A stretch of 50,870 bases of DNA, from assembly GCA_020444075.1 (NCBI GenBank), contig JAHLLR010000035.1, positions 1 through 50,870 on the forward strand. The letters are read 5' to 3'. Shown piece after piece: positions 1 to 49,920 of this stretch (the stretch's first letter is position 1; the number at the start of each line of letters is the position of its first letter). The stretch comes from Deltaproteobacteria bacterium (GTDB lineage: Bacteria; Desulfobacterota; Desulfobacteria; Desulfobacterales; Desulfosarcinaceae). The notes beneath the pieces were generated by a model, which had not been told where the DNA came from, did no database searches, and saw nothing but the letters and a program-made list of their open reading frames with translations. A program made the translations under genes and the position numbers.

Positions 1-817
1 AATTGTCGACGGCAACCGGCAGTTGTGCCGTATAGTTCAAGGGGGCGTGGCCGGATAGGAAGGCAGGTGCCTGGGCCAGGGTGCGACGGGGCAGGGAACT
101 CTCGCTGTTCCTGACGACGGTTCCGGCATGGGTAAAGCGGGTCCACCGTCCTGCGGGGGGCAGTTCGGTAACGATATCCCGAGGGTTGAACACGTTGAAT
201 ACCGGAACGTGGGCCAGGGTTTCGGCAAATGCGGCATCACCCATGCGGGGGGCGCCGAAGGTGTATACGGCGCGCGGTGGCCGAAGCGACGCCGCCAGGG
301 TGGCCAAAGCGCCGCCCAGACTGTGACCCGTGTAAAACAAAGGCTTTTTTACGGTATTCAGTGCGGTCGAGATGGTGTCCCAGAGTTCCATCAAAACGGT
401 TTTGAATCCCCGGTGAACGGTGCCGCCGGCAGGCCAGGGGCAAAGGGCCATGTCCAGATTAACCAGCCAGTTGGACAGTCGGCCGCTGGTTCCCCGAAAT
501 ACCAGTGCGGCAAAGCCACCGCCGCCGGGATCATGGGTTTCCACCAGGGCGCCTTGAATCGTCGACCCGCTGAAAAATTGCCGTTCAACCAGACCCACGC
601 GTGCCAGAAAGTCGCTTCGCGACGCATGGCCAAAGCGGTCGATTCCCTCGCTGGCATCCTTTTTATAGATCAGGCGGGAAAGCTCGGAGAGCCACCAGGC
701 ATTGACCGGGTTGAACCCGTCGGCATTCACCGCAAAAGCCATGGGCCGATCGTCCATGAAAAAATCATCGGACGCACCGGGCCTGAATATCGCCTTCCAG
801 GAGTGGTTGTAAGCCAT
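1..817 (-). CDS. class-3 lipase family protein (3' end outside window)
   Basis: An alpha/beta hydrolase of the lipase class 3 type, likely an esterase or (phospho)lipase. The frame is open from the ATG at 817 to the left edge, so the C-terminus is missing, but the catalytic set is visible: GHSLGG with nucleophile Ser166, a candidate Asp214 in NPRDIVTE, and a candidate His257 in SGHAPLNY. The family usually ends shortly after this His, so little is lost. There is no signal peptide or membrane segment at the N-terminus (MAYNHSWKAIF), so the enzyme should act in the cytoplasm or on the inner membrane face. It is divergent from rmuC, and the gap carries an 11-bp-period Pho-box-like array pointing toward this gene. 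That suggests induction under phosphate starvation. The family call is firm; the substrate is unknown. Confidence 0.85.
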   Translation of the reverse strand, partial: MAYNHSWKAIFRPGASDDFFMDDRPMAFAVNADGFNPVNAWWLSELSRLIYKKDASEGIDRFGHASRSDFLARVGLVERQFFSGSTIQGALVETHDPGGGGFAALVFRGTSGRLSNWLVNLDMALCPWPAGGTVHRGFKTVLMELWDTISTALNTVKKPLFYTGHSLGGALATLAASLRPPRAVYTFGAPRMGDAAFAETLAHVPVFNVFNPRDIVTELPPAGRWTRFTHAGTVVRNSESSLPRRTLAQAPAFLSGHAPLNYTAQLPVAVDN

Positions 818-924
818 TTTTCCCGCCGTCTGCTTTTTGTACCGTTATACGGGCAGCTGATCCTGCCTGTGGATCCGAGTGAAGAATGTTAACCTAATCA
901 GAGGGAAAAGCGGGGTCAATAGAA

Positions 925-964
925 ATGTTAGCAATTGGTTATCAATTTGTTAGTCCATTGTCAG
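925..964 (-). promoter_or_regulatory. Pho-box-like array, four half-sites
   Basis: Read on the minus strand, four 7-mers CTGACAA, CTAACAA, ATAACCA and CTAACAT lie at 958-964, 947-953, 936-942 and 925-931. Each is separated by exactly 4 bases, giving an 11-bp period. A weaker fifth unit (ATTGACC, 914-920) keeps the register. This is the PhoB direct-repeat layout and matches the arrays before pstS in this window. It lies about 110 bases upstream of the lipase start and points toward it. Confidence 0.7.
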
Positions 965-1107: not shown

Positions 1108-2604
1108 ATGACGGAACTTCAAATTGCCTATCTGATCGGCGGGGCGGCAGGATTGCTGATAGGCGCCGTGACCGCTCTTCTCGTTTCCCGTTCCCGGAAC
1201 AGGGCCGAGCGGGCAACCCTTTCGCGGCTGGCGGAGATGGAAAAGGCGGCCCTGGAAGAGAAGCTGGCATCAATCCGGCAGCAGTTGGAGACGGTTCAAA
1301 AGGAGTTGGCCGAGGTCGAGGCCAACCTGGACCATCGCCGCGAAGCCATTACCGAACTGGAGGCGCAAAAAGCCGCCCTGGTCCAGACCGTCACCCGGAT
1401 TCCCGTGCTGGAAGAAGCCCTGGAAAAGAGCCGGCTGGGACAGGCGCAACGCGATGTCGAGAACCTGTCCCTGGAAAAAAAATTGTCGGAGCTGTCCACC
1501 CGCCTGGAAGCCGATCGCAGGCAGGCCGAAGAGAAGATCGTGCTGCTCAACGATGCGCGGGACCGGATGACCGTTGAGTTCAAGCTGCTGGCGGAGCGGA
1601 TCCTGGAAGAGAAGGGGAAGACGTTTGCCGACCACAACAGGGCCCAGATGGATGGTCTGATCAGCCCTCTGCGCGAACAGCTGGGCGATTTCAAGAAGCG
1701 CGTGGAGGATGTCTACGACAAAGAGTCACGCGATCGCGCGGCCCTGCTCAACGAGATCGGCCACCTCAAAAACCTCAACGAACGCATCGGCAAAGACGCC
1801 CTGAACCTGACCCACGCCCTCAAGGGGGATGTCAAAACCCTGGGCGGCTGGGGAGAAGTGATCCTGGAGCGGATTTTGGAGGCGTCGGGGCTGGAAAAGG
1901 GGCGGGTCTACGAGACTCAGGTGAGCCTGACCGGAAGCAGCGGCAGCCGCTACCAGCCGGACGTCATCGTCCGGCTGCCCGAGGGCAGGGATGTCATCGT
2001 GGATGCCAAGGTGTCCCTCAAGGATTATGAACGCTACCACGCGTCCAGCGACGAGACGGTGCGGGCCGCGGCCATCAAGGCCCACCTCGCCTCCCTGCGG
2101 GCACACTTCAAAGGCTTGAGCGAGAAGCACTACGAGGATCTGGAAGGGATCCGGACCCTGGATTTCGTGCTCATGTTCGTGCCCGTCGAGGCCGCCTTTT
2201 TTGCAGCCGTGGAGCATGACCGCGCGCTGTTCACCGAGGCCTTCGAGAAGAACGTAATCCTGGTTTCGCCGTCCACCCTGCTGGTGACCTTAAGAACCAT
2301 TCACAATATCTGGCGCTATGCGGACCAGAATGAAAACGCCCTGGAAATTGCCCGGCAGGCCGGCGGGCTTTACGACAAATTCATCGGTTTCATCGAAGCT
2401 CTCGAAGACGTCGGGCGGCAGCTGGACCGGGCCAGGGAAGCCTATCGAACGGCCAGGGACCGGCTGTCCACGGGCAGGGGCAACCTGGTGCGGCGCGCCG
2501 AACAGATAAAGGCCCTGGGCGTGAAAGCCAACAAGGCCCTTCCTGAATCCTATGCGGTCGAGCTGGAACCCGGGGAGCGTGAAGCCCTCGAAGCGGATGA
2601 TTGA
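1108..2604 (+). CDS. rmuC: DNA recombination protein RmuC
   Basis: RmuC family protein, known to limit rearrangement at short inverted repeats and predicted to be a nuclease. The 498 residues have the standard order: one N-terminal membrane anchor (about residues 6-25), a long coiled coil (about 30-190), then the conserved RmuC domain. That domain contains the PD-(D/E)xK-like core, seen as QPDVIV followed by VIVDAKVSLKDY, and ends in a helical tail. Length and order are normal for the family. The start is the ATG at 1108. The gene stands alone, with the small cupin gene 37 bases downstream that may be cotranscribed. Confidence 0.95.
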   Translation: MTELQIAYLIGGAAGLLIGAVTALLVSRSRNRAERATLSRLAEMEKAALEEKLASIRQQLETVQKELAEVEANLDHRREAITELEAQKAALVQTVTRIPVLEEALEKSRLGQAQRDVENLSLEKKLSELSTRLEADRRQAEEKIVLLNDARDRMTVEFKLLAERILEEKGKTFADHNRAQMDGLISPLREQLGDFKKRVEDVYDKESRDRAALLNEIGHLKNLNERIGKDALNLTHALKGDVKTLGGWGEVILERILEASGLEKGRVYETQVSLTGSSGSRYQPDVIVRLPEGRDVIVDAKVSLKDYERYHASSDETVRAAAIKAHLASLRAHFKGLSEKHYEDLEGIRTLDFVLMFVPVEAAFFAAVEHDRALFTEAFEKNVILVSPSTLLVTLRTIHNIWRYADQNENALEIARQAGGLYDKFIGFIEALEDVGRQLDRAREAYRTARDRLSTGRGNLVRRAEQIKALGVKANKALPESYAVELEPGEREALEADD

Positions 2605-14273: not shown

Positions 14274-14302
14274 CTAATTTTGTGCTAACCGTTTGCTAAC
14301 AT
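14274..14302 (+). promoter_or_regulatory. distal Pho-box-like array before pstS
   Basis: Three 7-mers CTAATTT (14274-14280), CTAACCG (14285-14291) and CTAACAT (14296-14302) are spaced by 4 bases, an 11-bp period. They have the same orientation as the stronger array 58 bases downstream. This is probably a second PhoB site or a second promoter for the pst operon. Confidence 0.55.
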
Positions 14303-14359: not shown

Positions 14360-14399
14360 CTGACAGCAACCTGACCCGACCCTGACACAAATCTAACAC
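14360..14399 (+). promoter_or_regulatory. proximal Pho-box array before pstS
   Basis: Four half-sites CTGACAG (14360-14366), CTGACCC (14371-14377), CTGACAC (14382-14388) and CTAACAC (14393-14399) are each separated by exactly 4 bases. This is close to the enterobacterial CTGTCAT-type repeat. The array ends 46 bases before the pstS ATG, the expected place for PhoB replacing a -35 box; a TAGCCT about 9 bases later could be the -10. Confidence 0.8.
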
Positions 14400-14445
14400 A
14401 GGGCGCTTAGCCTTGAATAAAGAATCAAACGGAGGGAAACGACCC

Positions 14446-15264
14446 ATGAAAAAGATGTTTCACATGATTGCATCAGTCATCGCGGCATTGACTCTTTGTG
14501 CGGCCACCGCCACGGCCGGAAACCTGGTGATCAAGGGCTCCACCACGGTGCTGCCCATTTCCCAACTGGCTGTTGAAGCATACATGAAGGCTCACCCGGA
14601 TGTGAACATCTCCCTATCCGGCGGCGGTTCCAGCAACGGCATCAAGGCCATTATCGACGGCTCCACCGACATTGCCAACGCCTCGCGTTTCATCAAAGAC
14701 AAGGAAGTGGCCCTGGCCCAGGAAAAGGGGGTTTACCCGGTGCCGTTCGCCGTGGCCTACGACTCCATTATTCCAGTTGTCCACCCCAGCAACACCCTGA
14801 CGGACATTACCCTGGTCCAGCTTAAAGACATCTACATGGGCAAGATCACCAATTTCAAAGAGATCGGCGGACCGGACCTCAAGATCGTCGTCTGCTCCCG
14901 CGACACATCCTCCGGCACCTATGAAACCTGGGAGGGCAAGGTTTTGGATAAAGAACGCGTTACTCCCCGCGCCCAGGTCATGGCGTCCAATGGCGCGATC
15001 GTTCAGGCCGTGTCCAACAACAAGTACGCCATCGGCTACATCGGCATCGGGTATCTTAACGATGCTGTCAAACCTTTGACCGTGGACGGGGTAAAAGGGA
15101 CCAAGGAAAGCACCCTCAACGGTACCTTTCCGATCAGCCGCCCCTTGTTCATGTTTACCAACGGCTGGCCCAAGGGCGAAACGCTGAACTTCGTCAACTA
15201 CATGCTCAATCCCCAAACGGGACAGAAGCTTGTTGAAAAGAGCGGTTATGTACCGCTGTATTAG
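14446..15264 (+). CDS. pstS: phosphate ABC transporter, substrate-binding protein PstS
   Basis: A periplasmic phosphate-binding protein of 272 residues. It has a signal peptide (about residues 1-24, ending ATATAG) and the PstS start of the mature protein, GSTTVLPISQLAVEAYM. Further signatures are SGGGSSNGIKAIIDGSTDIANASR and the SRDTSSGTYETWE loop, all lining the phosphate site. The ATG at 14446 has a GGAGGG ribosome site. It is first in the pst-pho operon behind two Pho-box arrays and is followed by a perfect stem-loop. Confidence 0.96.
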   Translation: MKKMFHMIASVIAALTLCAATATAGNLVIKGSTTVLPISQLAVEAYMKAHPDVNISLSGGGSSNGIKAIIDGSTDIANASRFIKDKEVALAQEKGVYPVPFAVAYDSIIPVVHPSNTLTDITLVQLKDIYMGKITNFKEIGGPDLKIVVCSRDTSSGTYETWEGKVLDKERVTPRAQVMASNGAIVQAVSNNKYAIGYIGIGYLNDAVKPLTVDGVKGTKESTLNGTFPISRPLFMFTNGWPKGETLNFVNYMLNPQTGQKLVEKSGYVPLY

Positions 15265-15301
15265 TCGTTTCGGTCGGCTCGATTAAGCGCTCCCCTTGAA
15301 C

Positions 15302-15337
15302 ACACCGTCCGCCGGGTCCGTTTCCGGCGGACGGTGT
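15302..15337 (+). terminator. pstS-pstC intercistronic stem-loop (attenuator)
   Basis: A perfect 14-bp stem (15302-15315 with 15324-15337) and an 8-base loop. Only ATTATTC follows instead of a T-run, so it is more likely a partial terminator or an mRNA-stabilising end. It would make pstS mRNA more abundant than that of the transporter core. Confidence 0.75.
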
Positions 15338-15396
15338 ATTATTCAAAAGGTGCGATGTAAAATCGATTTATAGGAAACAACAGACAGGCAATATCC

Positions 15397-16290
15397 ATGG
15401 CCAACCGTCGCCAAACCACAGAAAAATCCATGCAGGCGATGTTCTTCATCATCGCCACGGCATCCATTTCGATCCTGTTCCTGATTATGCTCTTCCTATT
15501 CAAGGAGGGGCTGCCGATTTTTAAGACGGTTTCTGTAACCGACTTTATTTTCGGGAAATACTGGTACCCGACGTCCGATCCGGCCGACTTTGGCATCTTT
15601 CCCCTGATTTTCGCATCGGTGGCGGTGACGGCCGTTTCCGGGGCGATATCCATCCCCCTGGGCGTAATGACCGCCATTTATCTCTCCGAAATCGCCAGGC
15701 CCCGGGTGGGGGAGATCGTCAAACCGGTTGTGGAACTGATGGCGGCGCTGCCGTCGGTCGTGATCGGATTTTTCGGCATGGTCCTGGTGGCGCCTTTCCT
15801 CCAGCGGATATTTGACATCCCCACGGGACTGAATCTGTTCAACGCATCGCTCATGCTGGCCTTTATGTCCATTCCGACGATCTGCAGCATCTCCGAGGAT
15901 GCCATTCACAGCGTACCCACCGCCCTGCGCGAGGCGTCGGTGGCCCTGGGTGCCACCCAGCTGCAGACCATTGTGCGGGTGGTGGTGCCGGCCTCGCTGT
16001 CGGGAATCAGCACGGCCGTGATCCTCGGTCTGTCCCGGGCCGTGGGTGAGACCATGGTGGTACTCATGGTCGCCGGTGGCGCCGCCATGCTGCCCGAATC
16101 GATCTTTGACCCGGTGCGTCCCATGCCGGCGAGCATTGCCGCCGAGATGGCCGAGGCGCCGGTAGGCAGTGAGCACTATTATGCCCTGTTTGCCACCGGT
16201 ATCGTTCTTTTCATCTTCACCCTGGTTTTCAACATCGTTGCCGACTATATCGCCCACCGCTATGCGCAGGTGGGGGAGGCATCCCTTTAA
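15397..16290 (+). CDS. pstC: phosphate ABC transporter permease PstC
   Basis: An inner-membrane permease of 297 residues with six helices. The first is about residues 14-36, and a periplasmic loop follows with FGKYWYPTSDPADFGIFPL. The EAA loop that contacts PstB is ALREASVALGATQLQTIVRVVVP, followed by GLSRAVGETMVVLMV, typical of Pst permeases. It pairs with PstA. The ribosome site before the ATG at 15397 is weak; translation may depend on the upstream stem-loop region. Confidence 0.95.
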   Translation: MANRRQTTEKSMQAMFFIIATASISILFLIMLFLFKEGLPIFKTVSVTDFIFGKYWYPTSDPADFGIFPLIFASVAVTAVSGAISIPLGVMTAIYLSEIARPRVGEIVKPVVELMAALPSVVIGFFGMVLVAPFLQRIFDIPTGLNLFNASLMLAFMSIPTICSISEDAIHSVPTALREASVALGATQLQTIVRVVVPASLSGISTAVILGLSRAVGETMVVLMVAGGAAMLPESIFDPVRPMPASIAAEMAEAPVGSEHYYALFATGIVLFIFTLVFNIVADYIAHRYAQVGEASL

Positions 16291-16347
16291 CGGCTGCGCC
16301 ATGGGTTTTCGAAATGATGAAAAAACACAAGCAAGAACCCTGAATCC

Positions 16348-17262
16348 ATGAAACAAGCAAAACCCAAGATGACTACCGAAAAGACATTATCCAAAAATAT
16401 GGCGGCCTATGACAAGCGTCGACGGTTTAAACAGAAAGTCTTCTTTACGCTTTTCAGGGGGGCGGCCGCTATCAACGGAATGGCTCTGCTGGTGATCGTC
16501 TACTTCATGGTGGCCAACGGCTGGCGGGCCATCAGCTGGGAATTTATCAGCCAACCGCCCATGGAATCCATGACCAAAGGGGGCATTCTGCCCTGTATCG
16601 TGGGCACCATCTGCCTGAGCTTCGGGGCCATCCTGGCGGCACTGCCCATCGGCATCGCCTCGGCCATCTACCTGAACGAATATGCCCGTCCTGGCAAGGT
16701 GGTGCGGCTCATCCGCCTGGGCATCAGCAACCTGGCAGGCGTTCCGTCGGTGGTCTTCGGACTTTTCGGACTGGCCTTTTTCGTAGTCATCCTCGACATG
16801 GGGGTAAGCATTGCCGCCGGCGCCCTGACCCTGGGAGCCATGTCCCTGCCGGTGATCATCGGCGCCACCGAAGAGGCCCTCAAATCCGTTCCCGACACCT
16901 ATCGTGAAGCTTCGCTGGGATTGGGGGCCACCAAATGGCAGACCATCTGGCGGGTGGTGCTGCCGTCGGCCCTGCCGGGAATTCTTACCGGTGCCATTCT
17001 GGGGGTCAGCCGGGCCGCCGGCGAGACGGCACCGATCATGTTTACCGGGGCGGTTTTTTTTACCCCCAAGCTGCCCACGTCGATCTTCAACGAGGTCATG
17101 GCGCTGCCCTATCACATTTATGTGCTGGCCACCGCCGGTACCGAAATCGAAAAGACGCGGCACCTTCAATACGGAACGGCCATCGTGCTGATCGCCCTGG
17201 TATTGGGGATGAACCTGCTGGCCATTTTCTGGCGGGCCCGTCTGAGAAAAAGGCTGAAGTAG
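16348..17262 (+). CDS. pstA: phosphate ABC transporter permease PstA
   Basis: The second Pst permease, 304 residues and six membrane helices. The N-terminal cytoplasmic tail is basic (about residues 1-35). Conserved parts are GVPSVVFGLFGLAFFV, the EAA loop DTYREASLGLGATKWQTIW, and GVSRAAGETAPIMFTGAVFF. It works with PstC and PstB to import phosphate. It starts 57 bases after pstC in the same operon. Confidence 0.95.
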   Translation: MKQAKPKMTTEKTLSKNMAAYDKRRRFKQKVFFTLFRGAAAINGMALLVIVYFMVANGWRAISWEFISQPPMESMTKGGILPCIVGTICLSFGAILAALPIGIASAIYLNEYARPGKVVRLIRLGISNLAGVPSVVFGLFGLAFFVVILDMGVSIAAGALTLGAMSLPVIIGATEEALKSVPDTYREASLGLGATKWQTIWRVVLPSALPGILTGAILGVSRAAGETAPIMFTGAVFFTPKLPTSIFNEVMALPYHIYVLATAGTEIEKTRHLQYGTAIVLIALVLGMNLLAIFWRARLRKRLK

Positions 17263-17388
17263 GCTTCGCGGGTTGGTTTGAATTATTCGTTAATTGGTCT
17301 TTTTGGGTGACGATTTAAACCAATCAACCCAAAATCAATTGTGTTTAGGATTCTGCCAATGAATGCGCCTGCATACCAGGAAGAACAG

Positions 17389-18150
17389 ATGAAACCGGAA
17401 TATAAGATGTCATCCGAAAACCTCGATTTCTACTACGGGGATTTCAAGGCCCTGCACGGTGTCTCCATGGACTTCAAGCCGCGCGAGGTGACCGCCCTGA
17501 TCGGCCCCTCCGGATGCGGCAAAAGCACTTATCTGAGATGCCTCAACCGCATGAACGACCTGATTCCCATCAGTCGGGTGGAAGGCAAGGTCACCCTGGA
17601 CGGCGAAGACATTTACGCCCCCAGCCTGGATGTGGTCATGCTGCGCCGCAAGGTGGGGATGGTGTTTCAGAAACCCAATCCGTTTCCCAAGACCATCTTT
17701 GACAATGTGGCTTACGGCCTGTGGGTCAACGGCATCAAGGACAAGGCGTTTGTCCAGGAACGGGTGGAGGAGAGCCTGAAGCAGGCCGCTATCTGGGATG
17801 AAGTCAAAGACCGGCTTCAGGATACCGCCCTGGGGCTGTCCGGCGGCCAGCAGCAGCGCCTCTGCATCGCCCGGGCCCTGGCCGTCAAACCGGAGGTGGT
17901 GCTCATGGACGAACCGGCATCCGCTCTGGATCCCATCGCCACCCAGAAAATCGAGGAGTTGATTCACGAACTCAAGGAGACCTACACGATTATCATCGTC
18001 ACCCACAACATGCAGCAGGCCGCGCGGGTATCGGATGTCACCGCCTTTTTTTATGTGGGTAAACTGATCGAGGTGGGGGACACGGACACGATTTTTACCC
18101 GGCCCAAGAAAAAGCAGACCGAGGATTACATTACCGGGCGCTTCGGCTGA
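17389..18150 (+). CDS. pstB: phosphate ABC transporter ATP-binding protein PstB
   Basis: The Pst ATPase, 253 residues from the chosen start. Walker A is GPSGCGKST, the Q-loop is [12 protein letters not shown], the signature is [15 protein letters not shown], Walker B is [12 protein letters not shown] and the switch His is in [12 protein letters not shown]. The C-terminus [14 protein letters not shown] is diagnostic of PstB. I prefer the ATG at 17389 with AGGAAG just upstream; in-frame starts at 17359 and 17341 would add 10 to 16 residues without a good ribosome site. Confidence 0.95.
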
Positions 18151-18952: not shown

Positions 18953-19641
18953 ATGAGTAAAGAGAAGATACTGGTGGTGGACGATGAGGAGGATATCCTC
19001 GAACTGGTCCGCTACAATCTGGCCCGCGAGGGGTATGCGGTGACCTGCGCCGCCTCCGGTGAAGCGGCCCTCAAATCGGCCATGTCGGATCCGGTTGACC
19101 TGATCATTCTGGATCTGATGCTGCCGGGCATCGATGGCCTGGAAGTGGCCCGACGCCTCAAACAAAATTCCGGCACCAAGGATACTCCCATTGTCATGCT
19201 TACCGCCAAGGGCGAAGAGGCGGACATCGTCACCGGTCTGGAGCTGGGCGCCGACGACTATGTGACCAAACCATTTTCCCCGCGCATCCTTATCGCACGC
19301 ATGAAAGCGGTGATCCGACGGCGAAGCGGCATTGTCGAACCGGAGAGCGAGGTATTGACCATCCGGGAGCTGTCCATCCATACCGGACGCCGTCACGTCA
19401 CCGCCGCCGGCAAATCGCTGGACCTGACCTATACGGAATTTCAGGTGCTCCATTTTCTCGCCCGCCGGCCGGGATGGGTTTTTACCCGCTCTCAGATCGT
19501 GGATGCGGTGCGCGGTGACGACTATCCGGTTACCGACCGCAGCGTGGATGTCCAGATCGTGGGACTCAGAAAGAAATTGGGACCTCTGGGAAAATATATT
19601 GAAACGGTGCGGGGGGTGGGCTACCGGTTCATGGAAAACTG

Positions 19642-19642
<1 letters not shown>
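18953..19642 (+). CDS. phoB: phosphate regulon response regulator PhoB
   Basis: An OmpR-type response regulator of 229 residues. The receiver domain has acidic DDEED, phospho-acceptor Asp54 (IILDLMLPG), the Thr of VMLTAKGEE and Lys in DDYVTKPFSP. The C-terminal winged helix (about residues 135-227) has TYTEFQVLHFLARRPGWVFTR and ends VRGVGYRFME. It should bind the 11-bp-period arrays described before pstS and the lipase. The stop overlaps phoR by one base. Confidence 0.93.
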
Positions 19643-21426
<1,784 letters not shown>

Positions 21427-48445: not shown

Positions 48446-49747
48446 TTAAGGGGCTCTGATTTCAGGCGGGTCGGCCACATTGCGCAAGAGGTGATCGAAA
48501 TCACGAAAGAGCATCATACGGATGGCCGTGCGCAGATTGTTCCAATACTCTTTGCGGGAACTAAACTTGGATCGGCAATACTGGTAGCCACGATCGCACA
48601 ATTCCAGGATTTGATGGATGTAAAAGGCCAACAGGTTGAGCACAAAAAACGTGTTCGATAGAAATCGTTGTCCATGCCCTAAGTTGTGTTCGATGTGGTA
48701 CCCCTGATTCTTCAGGGTATTGAAGGTTTCGTTTTCAATCTTCCAGCGCGCCCGGCCGGCATGTACCAGTTCAACGACATTGCCTTTTCCGACCGCGATG
48801 TCGGTTACCCAACTGTTGTGATAGGTGATCTTTTGATCGACATGCAGCCAATACTCAAAAAAGTTCGCCGGATCGGCATTGCGGCTGCCATTGAGCGGCA
48901 CCTGATTGACCCAGCGATAAACGTGGCGTCGCCCCTTCTCATCACTGAACTGTAAATACTCGCATTGCCCAAGACCGTCGAGTTCATTGACCCATTCGAA
49001 CAACACGGTATGATCGGTGGGTTTGGCCACCAGGATGAAAGACATCCGTGCCGCTTTCAACACATCGACAAAGGGTTGTTTCGAGTAGAGGCCATCGGCC
49101 GTAATAATGATCTTCAGTTTAGGATGAGCGGCACGGATGTCGGCCACAATTCGTTTGGCGGCATTGATCTCGCAATCCTGCTTGGTGTGACCATCGGTGT
49201 TGGCCACCGGCTCCGGGGCCATGAGCAGGACCTGGCGCCGGTCAGGGCTCAGTATCATCGCCTGCAGGATCTGATGGGAATACCGTGTTGATCTTTTTGC
49301 GCCCTTGTATGTCAGGCAGTTGGGACAATGGATCTTTTCGGAAGAAAAATACTGTGAGTCGTCCAGGCCGATCAAAGAATGCCCGCTTTCCAGTTGGTAG
49401 GCGACCAGCTGTTTTCCCCGCTGCAGGTGTTGGAGCAAGATCGAGAATGCCGGATACAGGACGTGCGTGGGGACATTGTCCAGGGTTTGTCGCAAGGCGC
49501 TGTCACTGGGGATTTTCTTGACCGCAAACATCGCTTTTAAATTGCAGCACTGCATGCGATCTTGCATTCGCCGTTGAAAAGAAAGCAGGGAGTGGTCTTG
49601 AAAGAACATCATCGCCAAGGCGCTCATCAAACAATCGTGCATCGAGAATTCGACTTTGCCCGCCTGTCGGGAATCGTCGATCTTATCGAAGAGTTCGGAA
49701 AGAGCCCTTCGCAGTGCGTTGAAACTCAGATGCTTTTTGATGTGCAC
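48446..49747 (-). mobile_element. IS4-like DDE transposase (insertion sequence)
   Basis: A transposase of 433 residues from the chosen start. Catalytic residues are visible: Asp in SLIGLDDSQYF, Asp in IIITADGLYSKQPF, and Glu in RARWKIENETFNTLKNQGY, the YREK-like region of IS4-type enzymes. The N-terminus is a helical domain and CPNC in the middle is a possible metal site. The GTG at 49747 follows AGGGGGG; the frame opens at 49774. The gene looks intact. I could not define terminal inverted repeats or a target duplication, so the element's ends are unknown. Confidence 0.88.
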
Positions 49748-49920
49748 CACAGCCCCCCTGCATAGATAACTCACTGTAATCTATAGCAGTAAAAAGGGCT
49801 TGTGTCTAGATAAATATATCCAATTAAAACAATGGTTTGTGATTTTTCTAGCGAGACCCATCGCGAAATCTTGTTTTTAGTAATTGAATAGATCGGCAAA
49901 TATCAGCATGAACCGCATTC

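Follow-up and report, generated by a model that had tools for sequence, protein, structure and literature searches.

The PHO box has been described as two or more direct repeats of 11 nt, each made of seven conserved and four less conserved bases (PMC4415409). In the sulfate reducer Desulfovibrio alaskensis G20, phosphate limitation was reported to result in the replacement of more than 90% of the phospholipids by glycolipids and ornithine lipids, and both Pst and PhoR were found to matter for the phosphate response (PMC5193443); such replacement in a sulfate reducer is thus already published. Neither 'lipase' nor 'phospholipase' occurs as a word in the main text of the D. alaskensis G20 paper, and nothing on point was retrieved from the mostly open-access literature that we searched for Pho control of a class-3 lipase or for a Desulfosarcina lipase in connection with phosphate. 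Here we describe a Pho-type array in front of a class-3 lipase gene, which suggests that membrane lipids would be dismantled when phosphate is short. In Desulfosarcina, the lipase seems to be under the positive control of PhoB, the regulator of the response to phosphate starvation.

The features of the window, by which we mean the whole analysed stretch of 50,870 nucleotides, are listed in Table 1. Read on the minus strand from 964 to 925, the array in front of the lipase has the sequence CTGACAA-tgga-CTAACAA-attg-ATAACCA-attg-CTAACAT, i.e., its four units lie on an exact 11-bp grid and agree in unit and spacing with a Pho box. When four-unit sites in the window were scored against a loose Pho-type consensus of our own choice, the lipase array and the proximal pstS array shared the top score of 26/28. 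The original prediction had described four 7-mers with exact 4-base spacers facing the lipase and the same 11-bp layout as in front of pstS. The 7-mers were confirmed on the minus strand, and the motif is shared with pstS; a profile built from pst arrays alone found the lipase array, although weakly. The PhoB-type regulator is encoded 18 kb from the array. It matched TIGR02154 (PhoB) with an E-value of 4.2e-72 and 242.1 bits, under the cut-off of 296.2 bits, and the histidine kinase matched NF046044 (PnpS) with 389.8 bits at a cut-off of 400. As both regulators are under the NCBIfam cut-offs, the names PhoB and PhoR follow from the best match and from the position of the genes. A transposase-like gene, for which the DDE_Tnp_1 models scored below their cut-offs, lies at 48446-49774, close to the right end of the contig.

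Table 1. Coordinates of the features of the window.
Feature	Position	Strand	Remarks
Class-3 lipase (Lipase_3, PF01764)	5..817	-	271 residues inside the window; ATG at 817
Sigma70-like promoter TTGACC-N17-TAGGTT	891..919	-	Predicted; just downstream of the array
Pho-type array	925..964	-	Four 7-mers with exact 4-base spacers, aimed at the lipase
rmuC, divergent neighbour	1108..2604	+	PF02646, E 5.8e-105; array and promoter face away from it
Distal pstS array	14274..14301	+	Reference site
Proximal pstS array	14360..14399	+	Reference site
pstS, pstC, pstA, pstB (phosphate transporter)	14413..18150	+	Named by Pfam domains and gene order
PhoB-type response regulator and PhoR/PnpS-type histidine kinase	18953..21426	+	

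To assess how unusual such an array is, its parts were counted in the genome of the window (5.59 Mb, 173 contigs) and in the genus. Dimers with at most one mismatch were uninformative by themselves: they occurred 30 times in this genome, compared with 64 times for the reversed pattern. Exact matches to CTRACA-N5-CTRACA numbered three, located in front of the lipase, in front of pstS and on contig C144. It is the number of units that makes the lipase site unusual. Across the 13 Desulfosarcina genomes, three units with at most one mismatch were found 71 times, against 39 in the control, and the 26 exact three-unit matches were distributed over pst (18), the lipase (six), a DAGK-like protein (one) and a small unknown protein (one). 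When the 300-bp upstream region was resampled 2,000 times with an order-1 Markov model and scored with a unit matrix derived from the pst arrays, neither the two-unit nor the three-unit score of the lipase array was ever reached.

Downstream of the array follow five bases, TTGACC, 17 bases, TAGGTT and approximately 75 bases up to the start codon of the lipase. When the last repeat is taken to begin at position 1, TA starts at position 16 in all 11 distal pst arrays, and eight of the 11 read TAnTTT at this point; the array there thus stands in for a -35 box. In E. coli, the Pho array likewise replaces the -35 box. This classical placement, in which the last repeat serves as the -35 box and the -10 box lies about 16 bp after the start of the repeat, was not observed at the lipase. 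Instead, all eight arrayed promoters of the genus, as well as that of the homologue L155 from another family, carry TTGAC[CT] from position 13 on and TAnnnT from position 36 on, the two being separated by 17 bp; at the more distant loci L156 and L042, TTGAC stands at positions 12 and 11, respectively, with no TAnnnT at the 17-bp spacing. With the -10 box at position 36, the lipase array is situated 20 bp, or near two helical turns, further upstream than the pstS array. From this layout we infer that PhoB would act as an upstream activator at a lipase promoter having its own -35 box, and this box may allow some basal activity to be retained. An rmuC operator was also considered and could be ruled out on the basis of the orientation of the repeats and the conserved -35 and -10 boxes aimed at the lipase.

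A profile, R1, was derived exclusively from pst arrays (22, taken from 11 genomes), lipase sites being excluded, and was searched against the 13 Desulfosarcina genomes at E≤10 with at most 150 candidates scored per genome. This resulted in at least 65 sites in 11 of the 13 genomes. Matches to pst (24 sites) were expected by construction, but the matches to the lipase (nine sites in eight genomes) were not. The following gene was a small protein at six sites, a DAGK-like protein at four, and ppk, a short-chain dehydrogenase and phoA at two each, one of the phoA sites being a weak and distant match. Six further sites preceded single genes, three of which encode an LtaS-like sulfatase, a phytase-like protein and a low-molecular-weight phosphatase, respectively, and ten of the 65 had no assigned gene, five of these never having been retrieved for assignment. 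Two sites of G017 lie inside an extrapolated pstS start, i.e., not clearly before the gene. Among the 150 of 445 candidates scored in the genome of the window, three sites passed E≤10, two at pst (0.029 and 0.29) and one at the lipase (9.6, 10.0 bits), and no R1 site beyond these was found. The genome scan with a pst-derived matrix, which the original prediction had proposed, thus placed the lipase among the Pho sites of the genus, but ranked it third and weakest in its own genome. No PlcP and no synthase of glycolipids or ornithine lipids was recognised among those of the 65 R1 sites that had an assigned gene.

The same search uncovered other genes with Pho-type arrays. A DAGK_cat/YegS-like lipid kinase carries the array in four Desulfosarcina genomes, G013, G014, G022 and G023, and a homologue adjoins an R1 match in G028 (DAGK-like loci, taken together: L086:3192-4097, L090, L096, L136:1979-2869 and L194); the protein was looked for in the genome of the window and not found. 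A DAG-kinase-like protein with a Pho array in four relatives would fit diacylglycerol turnover. The small proteins (L095:3760-4167, L135:3768-4040, L138, L142, L146 and L147), several of which start with MISENCSIEEFVE or similar, make up a putative, uncharacterised Pho-linked family, which is located upstream of ppx in four of six places; the member at L095 had no Pfam match. In two genomes, a Pho-type array precedes a heavy-metal-type P-type ATPase (L099:6842-8770 and L097:10517-12397). At L099, TATATT is found at the classical distance, and at L097 the ATPase gene is followed by an SPFH/HflK-like gene.

A full-length lipase gene was identified in nine of the 13 genus genomes including that of the window, to whose protein the other eight are 62-85% identical. 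The array precedes eight of these nine orthologues, about 90-155 bp ahead of the ATG, and for each of the eight, 2,000 rounds of Markov resampling of its own upstream region never reached the two-unit score. No array was present upstream of the G014 orthologue (65% identical). By eye, array and promoter were the most clearly shared block of the upstream alignment. A lack of conservation before orthologues had been named in advance as a refutation of the original prediction, and the array proved to be conserved within the genus. Outside the genus it was detected at three of 32 distant homologues scanned, namely L042 of another genus of the same family and L155 and L156 of two other families, with 29 having none; the scan took in 32 of the 45 matches of the homologue search. 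The class-3 lipase paralogue L050 of G023 and the distant homologues L043-L049 had no arrays.

In a tree of 37 lipases, constructed without L042, L047, L048 and L049, the ten arrayed sequences all belonged to a single 12-member clade with a support of 95/88, which additionally contains the lipases of G014 and G200. The neighbours of the lipase in three genomes of other families provide evidence that is independent of motif scoring: in G063 a pstS-like gene is located upstream in the same direction, in G200 phoA is located downstream with a weak R1 match (E 1.98) in between, and in G047, whose lipase does not belong to the clade, the lipase and an alkaline phosphatase gene are divergently oriented. 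At the arrayless loci L161, L162, L165 and L166 of other families, the homologue lies directly behind a gene of about 200 aa with a PAS domain, and this neighbourhood suggests a different, non-phosphate role in those families. The lipase homologue of G028 (L042/L051, G028:C97:723-1578) is split over two reading frames with the array ahead of it, and represents either an assembly error or a decaying gene.

The lipase was assigned to Pfam Lipase_3 (PF01764) with an E-value of 5.9e-20 and 72 bits, compared to a curated cut-off of 22, while NCBIfam gave no useful name for it. The residues Ser166 (in GHSLGG), Asp214 and His257, noted as a full set in the original prediction, were invariant in all five aligned proteins; they are a triad assigned by motif and position, without a confident structural model. 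Neither a signal peptide nor a membrane anchor was visible by eye in the five N-termini. The AlphaFold model, for which five sequences were used, was poor (mean pLDDT 56.4). With this low-confidence model, Foldseek returned at E≤0.001 only class-3-type lipases, phospholipases A1, a feruloyl esterase and EDS1 complexes, the best match being the mono- and diacylglycerol lipase 5ch8. Sequence and fold searches together pointed to class-3 lipases, mono- and diacylglycerol lipases and plant phospholipases A1, and the sequence cannot choose between a phospholipid and diacylglycerol as the substrate. As an enzyme that cuts acyl esters, a class-3 lipase would not liberate phosphate on its own.

The first bases of the window are also present at the end of contig C19, which adds one more lipase residue, the stop codon and then an alpha/beta hydrolase (L178). 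A gene for such a hydrolase follows the lipase in seven of the nine genus genomes (G000, G012, G014, G017, G021, G022 and G023) and also in G083, but none was seen in the 1.4 kb read in G018, the 400 bp read in G015, or the G028 and G063 loci. By eye, six of the seven genus spacers contain a TTGACC promoter pattern of the hydrolase's own and no Pho array, L038 being the exception, and a TTGACC ... TGGTAAA-like pattern is common to the lipase-hydrolase spacers L035, L037, L039, L040, L041, L155 and L178. A Pho operon of lipase and hydrolase is thus unsupported, given this separate promoter pattern and the absence of the hydrolase downstream in G018.

The sequence itself provides an array that has the pst motif and is conserved, together with a promoter pattern and conserved triad residues. 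Taking these together, we consider it very probable that a PhoB operator raises the level of a putatively cytoplasmic lipase at low phosphate and that this lipase deacylates membrane glycerolipids during lipid replacement. The binding and activation by PhoB, the substrate and the physiological role can be pictured as follows. At low phosphate, PhoB would become phosphorylated and occupy the four repeats immediately upstream of the TTGAC -35 box, probably in the form of two tandem dimers, and transcription of the putatively cytoplasmic class-3 lipase would rise as a result. The enzyme would most likely strip acyl chains from glycerolipids, either from phospholipids or from diacylglycerol after removal of the head group, and this would accompany the rebuilding of the membrane with phosphorus-free lipids. 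In most of the genus, the adjoining alpha/beta hydrolase may take the second acyl chain. Regarding the original interpretation, the Pho-type array facing the lipase is well supported, whereas the release of phosphate-bearing lipid or the recycling of acyl chains is something that the lipase may contribute to.

Two other explanations concern the array itself. It is extremely improbable that the array is a chance resemblance within an A+T-rich intergenic gap; although dimer matches are frequent in this genome (30, versus 64 for the backwards-read pattern), the array stands out as the most clearly shared block in otherwise diverged upstream DNA and its score was reached by none of the 2,000 resamples, and on these grounds of orthologue conservation and resampling a chance match was ruled out. 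Tandem repeats of roughly 10-11 bp are common targets of OmpR-type regulators, and a different member of this family with a similar 11-bp repeat could bind the array, in which case the lipase would not be controlled by phosphate. This preference of the family and the placement of the array, which differs from that at pstS, would agree with such a regulator, but the pst-derived profile also finds the ppk, ppx-linked and phoA sites, and in three genomes from other families the lipase has a pstS-like or phoA-like neighbour; this makes another regulator improbable.

The other explanations concern the lipid on which a PhoB-controlled lipase would act. A PlcP-like phospholipase C could remove the head group, after which the lipase would clear or recycle the diacylglycerol in competition with the Pho-linked DAG-kinase-like enzyme. 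We regard this as a tentative possibility, to which the DAGK_cat protein with the same Pho array in four genus genomes, its homologue by an R1 match in G028, the fold match of the low-confidence model to 5ch8, and the diacylglycerol lipase known from Sinorhizobium meliloti all lend weight. However, the kinase-like protein was not found in the genome of the window, and Foldseek rank inside one superfamily says little about the substrate. The lipase could also be a phospholipase A which, together with the adjoining hydrolase and a glycerophosphodiester phosphodiesterase (GDPD), would fully deacylate phospholipids so that phosphate is freed. GDPD is present in ten of the 13 genus genomes, that of the window included, and could act on fully deacylated phospholipids; the presence of the hydrolase behind the lipase in most of the genus and in G083, and the plant phospholipases A1 among the fold matches of the low-confidence model, point in the same direction. 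Against it stand the four loci in which the hydrolase was not found downstream of the lipase (within the lengths read in G018 and G015), the promoter pattern of the hydrolase without a Pho array, and GDPD itself, no gene of which was assigned to a Pho array, the one in G014 lying just upstream of an array that faces another gene; this full deacylation is possible but rather doubtful.

Returning to PhoB control of the lipase, a more detailed version can be proposed, in which the PhoB-controlled class-3 acyl hydrolase dismantles phospholipids with the neighbouring hydrolase in most species and the Pho-linked lipid kinase in some, instead of or beside PlcP, and in which PhoB bound upstream of a true -35 box keeps basal expression. 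As a whole, this version is speculative and we would not call it likely. The locus offers a testable entry to the dismantling of phospholipids by sediment sulfate reducers that are short of phosphate, and the analysis yields a Pho motif for Desulfosarcina together with a list of Pho genes, several of which are uncharacterised.

Desulfovibrio alaskensis G20 belongs to another lineage. Like Desulfosarcina it is a sulfate reducer, and the lipid replacement published for it is proposed here for Desulfosarcina. A diacylglycerol lipase of Sinorhizobium meliloti, reportedly described by Sahonero-Canavesi in 2015, is said to have a patatin-like fold, and we know of no phosphate control of this enzyme; it resembles the present case as a bacterial lipase tied to lipid turnover, but is patatin-like and not of class 3. 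The fungal class-3 lipases (Thermomyces, Rhizomucor, Penicillium MDLA) share Lipase_3, GHSLGG and the Ser-Asp-His residues with the Desulfosarcina lipase. They are secreted enzymes, whereas the Desulfosarcina lipase has no evident signal peptide (by eye) and is Pho-linked. PlcP is a phospholipase C, while the enzyme here, as a member of the fungal-type class-3 lipases, is an acyl hydrolase. PlcP-dependent remodelling, as described in PMC7779409 and PMC4796936, likewise involves a lipid hydrolase linked to phosphate stress and the swapping of phospholipids for phosphorus-free lipids, which is what we propose here. Compared with the PHO box, the same motif is found in Desulfosarcina at pst, ppk, ppx-linked and phoA genes, but it reads CTAAC(A/C)N instead of the CTGTCAT of E. 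coli, the lipase array is located upstream of a separate TTGAC -35 box and not in its place, and the controlled gene would be a class-3 lipase. The lipase would be a new addition to the known Pho regulon from an enzyme family not previously tied, as far as our searches show, to bacterial phosphate starvation and, if confirmed, would place one more enzyme family among the Pho-controlled lipid hydrolases.
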